From Oscillospiraceae bacterium (GTDB taxonomy: Bacteria > Bacillota > Clostridia > Oscillospirales > Oscillospiraceae), in the NCBI GenBank assembly GCA_902761635.1, contig CACWLG010000013.1:1-54374 (forward strand): a stretch of 54,374 nt of DNA. Direction: 5' to 3'. The position numbers and the translations under genes are program-made. This document shows positions 45,481-49,489 of this stretch, in pieces (position 1 is the stretch's first letter; every line of letters begins with the position of its first letter). Under the pieces are notes generated by a model, which was not told the DNA's origin, ran no database searches, and worked only from the letters and a program-made list of their open reading frames with translations.

Positions 45481-45600
45481 ATCTGTCTCCTTTTCCGGCA
45501 CGCCGCCGATATTGTCTGCCGCTATTGTACTATAAATTCGCTGCGGCGGCAACTTGAATTACAGGCGAAGGCATGGTATCATGCTGTAGAATATACCCAG

Positions 45601-45720
45601 GGCAATACCGCATAATTCGGCAAGAGCAGATCCTGAGAAAATTTGGGTTCTGATAAAGGCACTTTTTCGCAGATGTACTTTGTGTACCTCAAGAAAAAAG
45701 GCGGATTGTGCGGTGTTGCC
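45601..45720. mobile_element. MITE-like element, copy 1 (120 bp)
   Basis: Starts GGCAATACCGCATAAT and ends ATTGTGCGGTGTTGCC, near-perfect inverted ends. Flanked on both sides by CCAG, a likely 4-bp target duplication. It shares about 90 bp of almost identical sequence with the element at 49333. No coding capacity of its own. It lies directly before the ribosome binding site of the TSCPD gene and may carry part of its leader. Confidence 0.8.
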
Positions 45721-45741
45721 CCAGAGCAGGAGGACAACACC

Positions 45742-45996
45742 ATGAAGATCACATACCGCCCGAAAGGGGTCTGCTCCAGACTGATGGAGATCGAGGTGGA
45801 GGACGACAGGATCGTCTCCGTGGAGGTCACCGGCGGCTGCGACGGGAACCTGAAGGGCATTGCCAGCCTTTTGCGCGGCATGCCCGTGGACGAGGCTATC
45901 CGTCGGATGGAGGGTATCCGCTGCGGCTTCAAGGCCACATCCTGCCCCGACCAGCTCTCCAAGGCCCTGCGCGGCTGGCGTGAAGCCAATGCGTAA
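45742..45996 (+). CDS. TIGR03905-type TSCPD domain protein
   Basis: An 84-aa protein: MKITYRPKGVCSRLMEIEVED, then VTGGCDGNLKGIASLLRGMPVDEAIRRMEGIRCGFKATSCPDQLSKAL. The TSCPD motif with three conserved Cys (VCS, GGCDGN, TSCPDQ) suggests metal binding; the domain also occurs at the end of some ribonucleotide reductases. Function of the stand-alone form is not known. AGGAGG is well placed. It overlaps the next gene by 8 nt. Confidence 0.85.
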   Translation: MKITYRPKGVCSRLMEIEVEDDRIVSVEVTGGCDGNLKGIASLLRGMPVDEAIRRMEGIRCGFKATSCPDQLSKALRGWREANA

Positions 45997-46891
45997 GAGC
46001 CTTTTCAGCGCGCTGCTCGCCCTGACGCTGCTGCTCGCAGATCCCGCGCAGGCGGCGCTTGCGGCGGGCTCACCCGCGCCTGCGTCCCTGCCGCCCCTTG
46101 TGCAGCGGGAGACGCCTGCGAATTTCTCAGCCGTGCCGGTCTACCTGGACGGCCTGCTGCTGTCGCGTGCCTGTCAGTGGGGCGACACCGTGTATGTGGC
46201 GCTGCGGCCCCTGTGCCGGTGGGCGGGGCTTGAGATGAGCTGGACGGGGGACGCGGAGCATCTGTCCCTGGAGCTTGACGGGCTCAAGGTCGAATGCCGG
46301 GCCGGCGATCAGTATTACCTGGCCGACGGGCGCTACATCTATGCGCCGGAAAACTGGTTCGTTCGGGGAAACGAGCTCTATCTCCCCCGCTATGCCCTCT
46401 GCAAACTCCTGAATCTCCGGGATGAGCTGCGCGACGGCGCGCTGCTGCTCGACGGCAGTCAGCTCCGGGTCCTGCGGGGCGGGAAGGATTATTACGATCT
46501 CAACTTCCCCCTGGAGGATGTCTACTGGCTTTCGCACATCATCGGCTCCGAGGCCGGGATCGAGCCCATGGAGGGCAAGATCGGCGTGGGCAACGTCGTG
46601 ATGAACCGGGTGCGTGATCCGGATTTCCCGGACACGGTCTTCGGTGTGGTCTATGATTACGAGCACACGGTGCAGTTTGAGCCCGTGTCCAAGGGCACCA
46701 TACACGACGACCCGAAGCAGGAGGACATCATCGCGGCCTACATGGTGCTGGAGGGGGCCAACACCGCGGGCGAGTGCATCTATTTCGTCAACCCCGATTA
46801 CGGCAGCTTCTGGTTCGACAACAATCTGGACTTTGTGAAGAAGCTGGGCCGCCATAATTTTTATGTCAGAAAAGGGAGCGGCAATGGCTGA
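45989..46891 (+). CDS. Secreted SleB-like cell wall hydrolase with copper amine oxidase-like N domain
   Basis: A 300-aa protein. After a signal peptide (residues 1-27) comes a stalk/beta domain of the copper-amine-oxidase N-terminal type (VPVYLDGLLLSRACQWGDTVYVALRPLCRWAG), then a Hydrolase_2/SleB-like catalytic domain with HIIGSEAGIEPMEGKIGVGNVVMNRVRDPDFPDTVFGVVY; the Glu in SEAG is the expected catalytic residue. It should cleave peptidoglycan, possibly spore cortex. Overlaps both neighbours (8 nt each), so it is coupled to the TSCPD gene and rsmG. Confidence 0.87.
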   Translation: MRKSLFSALLALTLLLADPAQAALAAGSPAPASLPPLVQRETPANFSAVPVYLDGLLLSRACQWGDTVYVALRPLCRWAGLEMSWTGDAEHLSLELDGLKVECRAGDQYYLADGRYIYAPENWFVRGNELYLPRYALCKLLNLRDELRDGALLLDGSQLRVLRGGKDYYDLNFPLEDVYWLSHIIGSEAGIEPMEGKIGVGNVVMNRVRDPDFPDTVFGVVYDYEHTVQFEPVSKGTIHDDPKQEDIIAAYMVLEGANTAGECIYFVNPDYGSFWFDNNLDFVKKLGRHNFYVRKGSGNG

Positions 46892-47600
46892 ACAGCAGTT
46901 GGAAACGATACTCCGGCAGGGGCTGGAGGAACAGGGTCTCCCCGCAGACGGCGAGACTCTGCGGCGCTTTCGCGTCTACTATCAGAATCTGGAGCAGGCC
47001 AATCAGGTCATGAACCTCACCGCCATCACGGGCGAGGAGGACGCGGCGCGCCTGCATTTTCTGGACTGCGCGGCCCTCGCCGCGGCGGTCGACCTGCGGG
47101 AGAAAAGCCTCCTTGACGTGGGCACGGGCGCCGGCTTTCCCGGCCTGGTGCTCAAGATCCTGTGCCCGGAGCTCAAGCTCACGCTGCTCGACAGCCTGGA
47201 CAAGCGCCTGCATTTTCTGGAGGATACCTGCGAAAAGCTGGGCTTTGCGGATGTAGCGCTGGTGCATGCGCGGGCCGAGGAGCCGCCGGAGGGCTTCCGG
47301 GAGAGCTTTGATTTTGCCTCGGCCCGGGCGGTGGCGCGGCTCAACGTGCTGTGTGAGCTGTGCCTGCCCTATGTAAAGGCGGGCGGCGCCTTCCTTGCGA
47401 TGAAGGGGCCGGAGCTGGACGCGGAGATCCGGGAAGCCTATGTGGCGCTCAAGACCCTCGGTGCTTCTCTCGAGCAGCAGATCCGCTATGCCGTTCCCGG
47501 TACAGACCTCGACCACCGCATTGCCATACTCCGCAAGACGGGGCCAAGCCCCAAAAAATACCCCCGCCGCTGGGCGCAGATCCGGAAGAAGCCCCTGTGA
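46884..47600 (+). CDS. rsmG: 16S rRNA (guanine527-N7)-methyltransferase
   Basis: A 238-aa SAM-dependent RNA methyltransferase: AITGEEDAARLHFLDCAAL, the SAM loop LLDVGTGAGFPGLVLKIL, KLTLLDSLDKRLHFLEDTCEKLGF and ASARAVARLNVLCELCLPYVKAGG. Standard length and domain order for RsmG/GidB. The ATG lies inside the end of the hydrolase gene. Confidence 0.96.
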   Translation: MAEQQLETILRQGLEEQGLPADGETLRRFRVYYQNLEQANQVMNLTAITGEEDAARLHFLDCAALAAAVDLREKSLLDVGTGAGFPGLVLKILCPELKLTLLDSLDKRLHFLEDTCEKLGFADVALVHARAEEPPEGFRESFDFASARAVARLNVLCELCLPYVKAGGAFLAMKGPELDAEIREAYVALKTLGASLEQQIRYAVPGTDLDHRIAILRKTGPSPKKYPRRWAQIRKKPL

Positions 47601-47620
47601 TTCATGAACACACTGTTAAC

Positions 47621-47655
47621 TTTTACCCCTGAAACCACCGTTTTCGGGGGTAAAA
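47621..47655 (+). terminator. Stem-loop after rsmG
   Basis: TTTTACCCCTGAAA/TTTTCGGGGGTAAAA nearly perfect 14-15 bp stem, 21 nt after the stop; the A/T flanks make it terminator-like in both directions. Confidence 0.5.
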
Positions 47656-47657
47656 AT

Positions 47658-47686
47658 TTGACAAGCGGGGCTTTTTGTGGTACAAC
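47658..47686 (+). promoter_or_regulatory. Predicted promoter of the alpha-amylase gene
   Basis: TTGACA (47658-47663), 17 bp spacer, TACAAC (47681-47686) with TGTGG before it, 41 bp before the start codon. Confidence 0.6.
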
Positions 47687-47726
47687 ATGCGAAACTCATC
47701 GAGATTACACGGAAAGAAGGGATTTG

Positions 47727-49199
47727 ATGAGTACAAACAAAACCATGATGCAGTATTTTGAATGGTACCTGCCGAATGACGGACTCTGGTGGAAGCGCTG
47801 CGCCGCGAAGGCGGACAACCTCGCCGCCCTCGGCATCACGGAGGTTTGGCTGCCGCCCGCCTATAAGGGCACCTCGCAGGAGGATGTGGGCTACGGCGTA
47901 TATGATATGTATGATCTCGGAGAGTTCGACCAGAAGGGAACGATCCGCACCAAATACGGGACCAAGGAAGAATACCTGGAGGCGATCCGCGCCTTCCATG
48001 CCGTCGGCATCGAGGTCTTTGCCGACATCGTGCTCAACCACCGCATGGGCGGTGACGAGCTGGAGGAGATCACCGCCGTCACCGACAACCCCGACAACCG
48101 CTGGGAGCAGATCGGCGACAAGCAGACCATCCGCGCCTGGTCGAAGTTCACCTTCCCCGGCCGCAACGGTACATACAGCAAGTTCACCTGGGACCACCGG
48201 CACTTCACCGGCACCGACTGGGACGAGGACGCGAAGGAGCAGGGCAACATCTATCGCTTCACCGGCAAGAACTGGAATCAGACCGACCCGGAGAAGGGCA
48301 CCTTCGACTACCTGATGGGGATGAACGTGGACATGTCCAACCCCACCGTCGTGAAGGAGACCAAGCGCTGGCTCAAGTGGTACCTCAAGGAGACGGGGGT
48401 GGACGGGCTGCGCCTCGACGCGGTCAAGCACATCAGCTTCCCGTTCTACAAGGAGCTGCTGCACGATATCCGCGAGGAAAAGCACCGGGAGCTGCCCGCT
48501 GTCGGCGAATACTGGAGCGGCAATCTCGAGCGCCTGCTGCACTATCTGGACGCGGTGGACAATGAGATGAGCCTCTTTGACGTGGCGCTGCACTACAACA
48601 TTTTCCACGCCTCCGAGGGCGGGGAGAACTATGACCTGCGCACGATCCTGGACAACACCCTCGTCAAGGCTCGGCCTATGAACGCCGTGACCTTTGTCGA
48701 TAACCACGACACCCAGTACGGTCAGAGCCTGGAGTCCTTTGTGCAGGACTGGTTCAAGCCCCTGGCCTACGCGCTGATCCTGCTCCGGCAGGACGGCGTG
48801 CCCTGCGTGTTCTATTCCGACTATTACGGCAACCCTGTCAAGAACCGCCCGCTGGTGCCGAATCTCGGCAAGCTCATCAAGCTGCGCCGGGCCTACGCTT
48901 ACGGCGAGCAGGAGGACTCCTTCGTCGATGAGCATCTGATCGGCTGGGTCCGCCGGGGCGACGAGGAGCACGAAAACTCCGGTCTCGCGGTGGTCATGTC
49001 CAACAGCGCCGAGGGCGGCAGTATCCGCATGTACATGGGCACCCAGTACGCCGGTGAGAGCTTCCACGACGTGCTCGGCAACTGCACCGAGCCCGTGGTC
49101 ATCGGTGAGGACGGCTGCGGCGATTTCGCCACCCAGGGCAGCAACGTGGCCATCTGGGTACGCAAGGCCGCCTTTGAGGATCTGGTTGTCAACGAGTAA
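47727..49199 (+). CDS. Cytoplasmic alpha-amylase (GH13_5-like)
   Basis: A 490-aa glycoside hydrolase family 13 enzyme. MMQYFEWYLPNDGLWWKRC at the start, DIVLNHRMGGDE (region I), GLRLDAVKHI with the nucleophile Asp (region II), PAVGEYWSG with the acid/base Glu (region III) and FVDNHDTQYGQ (region IV). No signal peptide, so it acts on intracellular alpha-glucan or imported maltodextrins, as AmyA does in enteric bacteria. The ATG at 47727 has GAAGGG upstream; the open frame to 47604 crosses the promoter and hairpin. Confidence 0.93.
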   Translation: MSTNKTMMQYFEWYLPNDGLWWKRCAAKADNLAALGITEVWLPPAYKGTSQEDVGYGVYDMYDLGEFDQKGTIRTKYGTKEEYLEAIRAFHAVGIEVFADIVLNHRMGGDELEEITAVTDNPDNRWEQIGDKQTIRAWSKFTFPGRNGTYSKFTWDHRHFTGTDWDEDAKEQGNIYRFTGKNWNQTDPEKGTFDYLMGMNVDMSNPTVVKETKRWLKWYLKETGVDGLRLDAVKHISFPFYKELLHDIREEKHRELPAVGEYWSGNLERLLHYLDAVDNEMSLFDVALHYNIFHASEGGENYDLRTILDNTLVKARPMNAVTFVDNHDTQYGQSLESFVQDWFKPLAYALILLRQDGVPCVFYSDYYGNPVKNRPLVPNLGKLIKLRRAYAYGEQEDSFVDEHLIGWVRRGDEEHENSGLAVVMSNSAEGGSIRMYMGTQYAGESFHDVLGNCTEPVVIGEDGCGDFATQGSNVAIWVRKAAFEDLVVNE

Positions 49200-49302
49200 T
49201 ATAGAAGAAGCTCTGAAAAAATCTTCACTGTTCATACCGCGTAATATCAGCACCGCAGGGGCTGGCGCCCTCGCCCTCCCGGCGGAAAAAACACAAAAAA
49301 TA

Positions 49303-49489
49303 CAGACCTTCGGCGAATTTGGATTTTTTTATGGCAATACCGCATAATTCGGCAAGAGCAGATCCTGAGAAAATTTGGGTTCTGATAAAGGCACTTTTTC
49401 GCAGATGTACTTTGTGTACCTCAATTTTCCAGGAGATGCCGAAGGCGGATTGTGCGGTGTTGCCTTATGTTTTCGCCGAAGGCTGTTTT
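49303..49489 (+). terminator. Alpha-amylase terminator split by a MITE-like element
   Basis: CAGACCTTCGGCGAA (49303-49317) pairs with TTCGCCGAAGGCTG (49472-49485), which is followed by TTTTCATTTT. The element at 49333-49464 sits in what would be the loop. Without it the hairpin has a loop of about 20 nt. Confidence 0.55.
49333..49464. mobile_element. MITE-like element, copy 2 (132 bp)
   Basis: Begins GGCAATACCGCATAAT and ends ATTGTGCGGTGTTGCC, with TTAT on both sides as a likely 4-bp target duplication. It matches the element at 45601 over the first 90 bp and over the last 22 bp; the junction differs by a 12-bp longer segment here (TTTTCCAGGAGATGCCG versus GAAAA). Confidence 0.8.

Follow-up and report, generated by a model that had tools for sequence, protein, structure and literature searches.

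A 159-bp type II MITE family in an Oscillospiraceae genome, with a covarying hairpin interior shared across different transposon ends

We analysed a 54,374-nt stretch of DNA (the window) from an Oscillospiraceae bacterium (assembly GCA_902761635.1, contig CACWLG010000013.1, positions 1 to 54,374 of the forward strand), which contains two short repeats with inverted ends. Very probably, these are copies of a 159-bp type II miniature inverted-repeat transposable element (MITE) that is moved in trans by an IS5-family transposase, that appears in this assembly at artefactual sizes, and that carries a mobile structured-RNA module in its interior. Type II MITEs are characterized in PMC10969869 by a length below 500 bp, terminal inverted repeats, direct repeats and similarity to an autonomous element at the ends only. 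The element has these features; what sets it apart is a conserved, covarying interior that is shared across different ends. The features of the two copies are as follows.

45601..45720, plus strand: MITE copy 1, type A ends, 120 bp in the assembly, natural length 159 bp
45597..45600: CCAG, left target duplication of copy 1, seen in the sequence
45721..45724: CCAG, right target duplication of copy 1, seen in the sequence
45669..45693, plus strand: apical part of the hairpin module of copy 1 (GCAG, stem, loop TTTGT, stem, CAAG), by comparison with order-level motifs
45698..45699: artificial joint of copy 1, between pieces of 98 bp upstream and 23 bp downstream; the right arm is partly missing
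49333..49464, plus strand: MITE copy 2, type A ends, 132 bp in the assembly, natural length 159 bp
49329..49332: TTAT, left target duplication of copy 2, seen in the sequence
49465..49468: TTAT, right target duplication of copy 2, seen in the sequence
49401..49424, plus strand: apical part of the hairpin module of copy 2, from which the joint cuts off one base, by comparison with order-level motifs
49424..49425: artificial joint of copy 2, between pieces of 92 bp upstream and 42 bp downstream, with a two-base overlap

Both copies have inverted ends of the kind that we call type A (left GGCAATACCGCA, right GGCAACACCGCA), in keeping with the terminal inverted repeats of about 4-30 bp of type II MITEs. 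Their left parts are identical over 92 bases (45601-45692 and 49333-49424) and their right parts over 23 bases (45698-45720 and 49442-49464). The coordinates, the inverted ends and the CCAG/CCAG and TTAT/TTAT flanks given in the original prediction were all reproduced. An 87-nt model of the inner module (R2) matches the two elements and nothing else in the window, both on the plus strand, at 45634-45727 (36.9 bits) and 49366-49451 (22.8 bits).

The source genome is a draft of 3.59 Mb in 176 contigs (85.8% complete). The end pattern, with up to 2 mismatches, matched it 91 times in forward and 75 times in reverse orientation, compared with 1 and 0 matches in a control read backwards, so the ends occur far above chance. 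Both ends are present at 52 of the 92 places tabulated, and 34 of these 52 copies are flanked by perfect 4-bp duplications (most commonly TTAA, 12; ATAA/TTAT, 9; CTAA/TTAG, 4); with shuffled right flanks the mean was 6.7 and the maximum 16 in 5000 trials. The flanks vary among the copies rather than being the same throughout the genome, and the prediction of MITE-like mobile copies is thus borne out. At 159 bp, with one variant of 225 bp, the element is well within the type II size range and contains no transposase gene. A search of the source genome with the element sequence found no element of protein-coding length, and the PF01609 matches of this genome sit elsewhere. The contig has no DDE_Tnp_1 (PF01609) match, which upholds for this family the claim that the window lacks a transposase; other transposase families were not searched for there. 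By DNA search the element was found in 18 of 36 congeners and in none of 23 genomes of other genera. No match was found in plasmids and phages by blastn, nor in viral contigs searched with the left end.

Two further forms were seen in the source genome. The 225-bp variant (L069, G000:C3:63010-63234) has 66 extra bases in the apical loop; joints or runs of N interrupt further copies of this form. Two 43-bp mini-palindromes (G000:C23:25629-25671 and G000:C42:27363-27405) have element-type ends without a matching 4-bp duplication.

The lengths of 120 and 132 bp arose in the assembly, as an artefact of a repeat with many copies. Full-length forms among the 52 two-ended copies are eight of 159 bp and the one of 225 bp. 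We compared the position of the break with the contig frame in 38 copies, omitting three with runs of N, those eight of 159 bp, the one of 225 bp and the two of 43 bp. Five of the 38 measure 158-160 bp, and some of these are broken by divergence and not by a joint. The longer piece lies contig-upstream in 36 of the 38 (19/20 on the plus strand, 17/18 on the minus strand), and a piece of 88-102 bp lies upstream in 28 and downstream in 2. Where a contig ends inside a copy, it does so 93-97 bp in at seven of nine places. Left ends (40 forward, 31 reverse) and right ends (36 and 27) are lopsided in the same sense as the artefact. In the closed genome G470 nine copies were fetched, and the seven that could be measured are all 158 bp long; among type A and B copies sampled from other genomes, 64 of 68 measure 159 bp (core match plus two 16-base ends).

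The original prediction had read the difference of about 12 bp between the two copies as a sign of at least two natural variants. Its inner junction lies 98 bp (copy 1) and 92 bp (copy 2) from the contig-upstream end, about where breaks at joined copies and contig ends cluster in this draft. Because the break tracks the contig frame, and a biological process would be blind to contig orientation, we attribute the sizes in the window to contig joining, and natural deletion variants were rejected on this test. The joined contigs probably ended about 95 bp inside the repeat, as a k-mer effect would produce. Real internal deletion would agree with the size variation by deletion known in other MITEs (among the examples in PMC10969869), and a few diverged short copies, for instance of 70 and 79 bp, may be real, but the upstream position of the longer piece on both strands, the clustered contig ends and the uniform copies of the closed genome leave almost no probability that the 120-bp and 132-bp forms arose in this way. 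The outer flanks and the duplications are untouched by the artefact. Length variants of repeats in draft genomes from metagenomes may thus be pure assembly artefacts, which betray themselves by a break that follows the contig frame.

The duplication made by IS5-kind elements is a 4-bp YTAR, and those listed above for the MITE are of this kind. Candidate autonomous elements were sought with a PF01609 profile search over 38 genomes. The congener G012 encodes an element with the same ends (1,766 bp, locus L139, flanked by CTAA / TTAA with 3/4 bases in agreement), and relatives with a length of about 1,133 bp were seen at 5 loci of Angelakisella massiliensis and also in Anaerotruncus colihominis and others. 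The element-type end pair is present at 28 of the 44 loci scanned, 15 of them with a perfect 4-bp duplication of the same kinds as at the MITE, and NCBIfam assigns these transposases to the IS5 family (NF033581). A second IS5 lineage has the ends GGAAACACTGATTTAA and GGAAACGCTGAATAAA and the duplication TTAA. The IS5-family insertion sequences of the first kind, with ends GGCAAYACCGCA and 4-bp YTAR-like duplications, resemble the MITE in both respects, but the MITE lacks a transposase and only 12-15 terminal bases are in common. With L139 and its relatives the match covers the first 12 bases on the left and 15 bases on the right, as expected of similarity confined to the ends, and a model of the MITE core (R1) found no match inside the insertion sequences of the loci searched (57 named). 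A weak match (L217 1265-1450, 25.1 bits), the only one beside any of them, stops at the left end of an IS5-family element.

A full-length insertion sequence with the same ends, which the original prediction had proposed to look for, thus exists in G012 and other Clostridia, and none was found in the source assembly. Since IS5 elements with matching ends exist elsewhere and not in this assembly, the elements are, from their sequence, type II MITEs that are probably mobilized in trans. An IS5-family transposase would bind the element ends and insert the element at YTAR-like sites, leaving 4-bp duplications. The G012 element contains group II intron matches upstream of its transposase (L139 496-1093, G012:C59; RF02005 at 496-728 and RF00029 at 1018-1093), and the frame list for this region holds no frame of reverse-transcriptase size.

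The element is predicted to fold into one long imperfect hairpin (z of -9.2 as DNA and -12.1 as RNA). Across 27 cores, 17 of 45 pairs show double changes, with a covariation score of 0.246 compared with 0.127 for shuffled and at most 0.071 for slid controls. The signal is also present inside type A alone (0.189 versus 0.109) and, scored on the structure of a type A copy, inside the differently ended type B described below (0.218 versus 0.116). At the level of the order, 40 cores from 35 genomes were aligned without reference to structure; double changes are seen at 15 of the 16 inner pairs (one of the 16 is unpaired in 30/39 rows), and the score of 0.589 again exceeds the shuffled (0.188) and slid (at most 0.208) controls. 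RNAalifold, applied to 34 inner modules (alignment A8, drawn from the 40 rows of A7), gave 29 pairs, 27 of them with a double change. The motifs GCAG, CAAG, AAGG and AACG are near constant in the order, and most stem columns vary.

At Watson-Crick columns of 82 distinct cores from 41 genomes, G.T occurs in 61 cells and A.C in 10; one column supplies 21 of the 61, and the count by column is 22:10. The order set gave 30 to 9. Because G.T departures exceed A.C, the plus strand seems to be the pairing strand. From the fold and covariation, the interior may be a mobile structured-RNA (or single-stranded DNA) module with a putative function. The hairpin would be retained because one strand acts single-stranded, probably as RNA bound via the conserved loops. 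Covarying stems with constant loops are shared with the structured RNAs of Rfam 15, in which no family matched the module above its gathering score, and a known Rfam RNA family was rejected on this basis. No description of the module was found in the literature, of which few subscription papers were covered.

It is also conceivable, but quite improbable, that the element is a plain type II MITE whose interior is passive and whose arms stay complementary only by arm-to-arm correction of a quasi-palindrome during replication. Such correction also yields paired double changes. It should, however, erase internal loops, and GCAG/CAAG and AAGG/AACG persist throughout the order as the stems change; acting on two strands, it predicts equal numbers of G.T and A.C, unlike the observed 61:10 in the genus and 30:9 in the order; and the interior is common to elements with different ends. 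That the module acts as single-stranded DNA, for example as a hairpin recognized by a protein in replication or transposition, is a stronger contender, though still somewhat unlikely. Single-stranded DNA also tolerates G.T wobble, and the element is mobile; constant internal loops combined with covarying stems are more typical of structured RNA, and a protein partner is known for neither the DNA nor the RNA form.

Several results weigh against the interpretation of a MITE that is moved by an IS5 transposase and carries an RNA module. The transposase of the G012 type has no match in the source assembly, which is 85.8% complete, although multi-copy insertion sequences may easily be lost from such a draft, and none of the loci scanned has an autonomous element whose ends are exactly of type B. 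Many copies from the order and class are without a duplication or clear inverted ends, and these copies were located with structure models, which favour paired sequence. In the counts of additional pair types, 36 (type A) and 33 (type B) of 500 shuffles scored as high as the data. Conservation in the genus is on average lower at unpaired than at paired columns (entropy of 0.46 and 0.36 bits), as a passive interior would allow. Finally, the upstream neighbours are co-directional in 35 of 79 cases, which is no orientation bias; this too suits a passive interior, and it is expected of single-stranded DNA if transcription is irrelevant.

Genes for this comparison were predicted with a trained codon score and not with a gene finder; 10 of 96 copies lie inside predicted frames. 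A cis-regulatory placement is not supported, given the unbiased orientation to genes. With no preferred orientation, the module more likely works in trans, or on its own element, than by controlling its neighbours.

The module is widespread. In sampled genomes, and with the source genome included, core model R1 matched 69/101 in the genus and 38/197 in the order (25/111 genera); R2 matched 90/391 sampled genomes of the class (59/223 genera). Some genomes of the order and class have one match. Candidates scored per genome numbered at most 34 (genus), 17 (order) and 11 (class), and copy numbers are lower bounds; the copies examined are part of the places listed by the model searches. A search of viral contigs with the apical motif gave two matches, L418 and L419, both IMG/VR contigs classed as viral; the ends of the copy on L419 are type-B-like. 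In G248, a thiamine pyrophosphate (TPP) riboswitch lies just 3' of a module copy (L396 343-448).

In congeners, elements of equal length have the same core between other ends, type B (GTAAACGATGATTAAA) or type C (GGAAGCGCTGATTAAA/GGAAACGCTGAATAAA). Compared with the second IS5 lineage, type C agrees at all 16 bases of the right end and at 13/16 of the left; the type C label is firm for only two copies. G093 and G123 carry types A and C side by side, and G032 and G022 have both A and B (in G022 the type A copy is represented by its right end only). Ends were typed on 92 best-strand matches, with two that are cut by the end of their stretch omitted (L032 and L334:1-103). A first classification gave 52 A, 31 B and 9 unclear, and a stricter one 49 A, 23 B, 2 C and 18 unclear. 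On a tree of 91 cores (127 columns, few forks resolved) the end types are interleaved and require 10 changes, of which at least three each for A and B are forced by well-supported branches; the tree labels are 54 A, 30 B and 3 C, with four of the 91 rows unlabelled and the C label of L044 doubtful.

Outside the genus, inverted ends include GGAACCTCTGAATA, GGCAATGCCGAGAC, AGAACCTGTTCCCA, GGGTACCTCTAAAA, GGTGTATCTGAAAA, AGGAACAG and TAGTACTCTG. As the lower stem of a long hairpin is complementary anyway, such ends need caution. An end pair with at most 3 mismatches together with a perfect 4-bp duplication was found at 8 of 48 loci, compared with a mean of 0.1 for permuted flanks; in a second set, at least 12 of 16 end bases match at 20/34 loci, compared with 4/292 when flanks were swapped between genomes. 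The copies in G470 have 3-bp duplications in 5/7 cases and a 4-bp duplication in 1/7. Types A and B and G470 make a firm case for different transposon ends and type C a fair one, and for the remaining copies different ends are no more than likely. Two groups of copies look otherwise. G467 has five module copies with five different complementary ends and no obvious duplication (L463-L467). In G325 and G357 (L470-L474) the module lacks clear inverted ends and has long conserved flanks, perhaps as part of another carrier; one of these loci has what looks to us like a T-arm-like stretch.

The inside of a MITE is often regarded as a remnant. With a covarying interior that spans different ends and is found in 90/391 sampled genomes of the class, the interior itself would instead be what is conserved, which poses the question of its binding partner. 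The module would have spread on MITEs, with ends exchanged or re-adapted to different transposases. Tentatively, it is possible that we are dealing with a previously undescribed structured RNA, distributed across the class, that travels on MITEs and, by switching ends, persists beyond any single transposase; the hairpin would then be the conserved unit and the ends replaceable, with three IS5-like kinds of end in one genus and other, different ones outside it. Any benefit to the element or to its host is likewise conjectural.

Copy 1 stands between a Ham1-family gene and a TSCPD-domain gene; the neighbours of copy 2 are an alpha-amylase gene and a leucine-rich-repeat gene. In the congener G022 the gene pair of copy 1 is adjacent without the element, but the spacer fails to align and is not an exact empty site; none was found in the 20 loci kept for copy 1, where G022 alone has the pair adjacent, and the search for copy 2 gave no locus that has both neighbours. 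The original prediction had named a conserved RNA gene without empty sites as one of the findings that would speak against it. The interior is indeed conserved and RNA-like; it is also mobile, and the adjacent pair in G022 is at odds with a fixed gene. It is thus very hard to sustain that the element is a host non-coding RNA gene that has been duplicated and is not truly mobile. Its conserved structure, the single match in some genomes and the five copies in G467 would fit such a gene, but not the near-identical copies that the source genome has in large number, at different sites and with 4-bp duplications, nor ends that match those of IS5 elements.

Other intergenic repeats share some of these features. 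REP/REPIN units are GTAG/CGTC-tagged and are associated with a RAYT transposase. As proposed for our element, they are hairpins spread in trans by a transposase, but their units are 20-40 bp (PMC3733652), far shorter than the element; from its size and IS5-type ends, membership in this group is unlikely. The Correia/NEMIS and ERIC repeats are abundant intergenic hairpins, like the element, and cleavage of their transcripts by RNase III (Correia) and RNase E (ERIC) is reported in PMC10969869; by description, they are set apart by other hosts and other ends. Closer in kind are QMITE2 (Coxiella) and Chunjie (Geobacter), which, in the same review, also have many copies, predicted structured transcripts and similarity confined to the ends. 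They are described there in one species or close relatives, whereas the covarying interior reported here spans many genera and different ends.

Two minor observations concern the source genome outside the element. An inverted repeat of 17 nt with a terminator-like look lies 3' of the GidB gene at 47618-47658 of the window, and L014 2583-2634 (G000:C16) matches the Streptococcus sRNA SpF59 in Rfam above the gathering score (68.1 bits).

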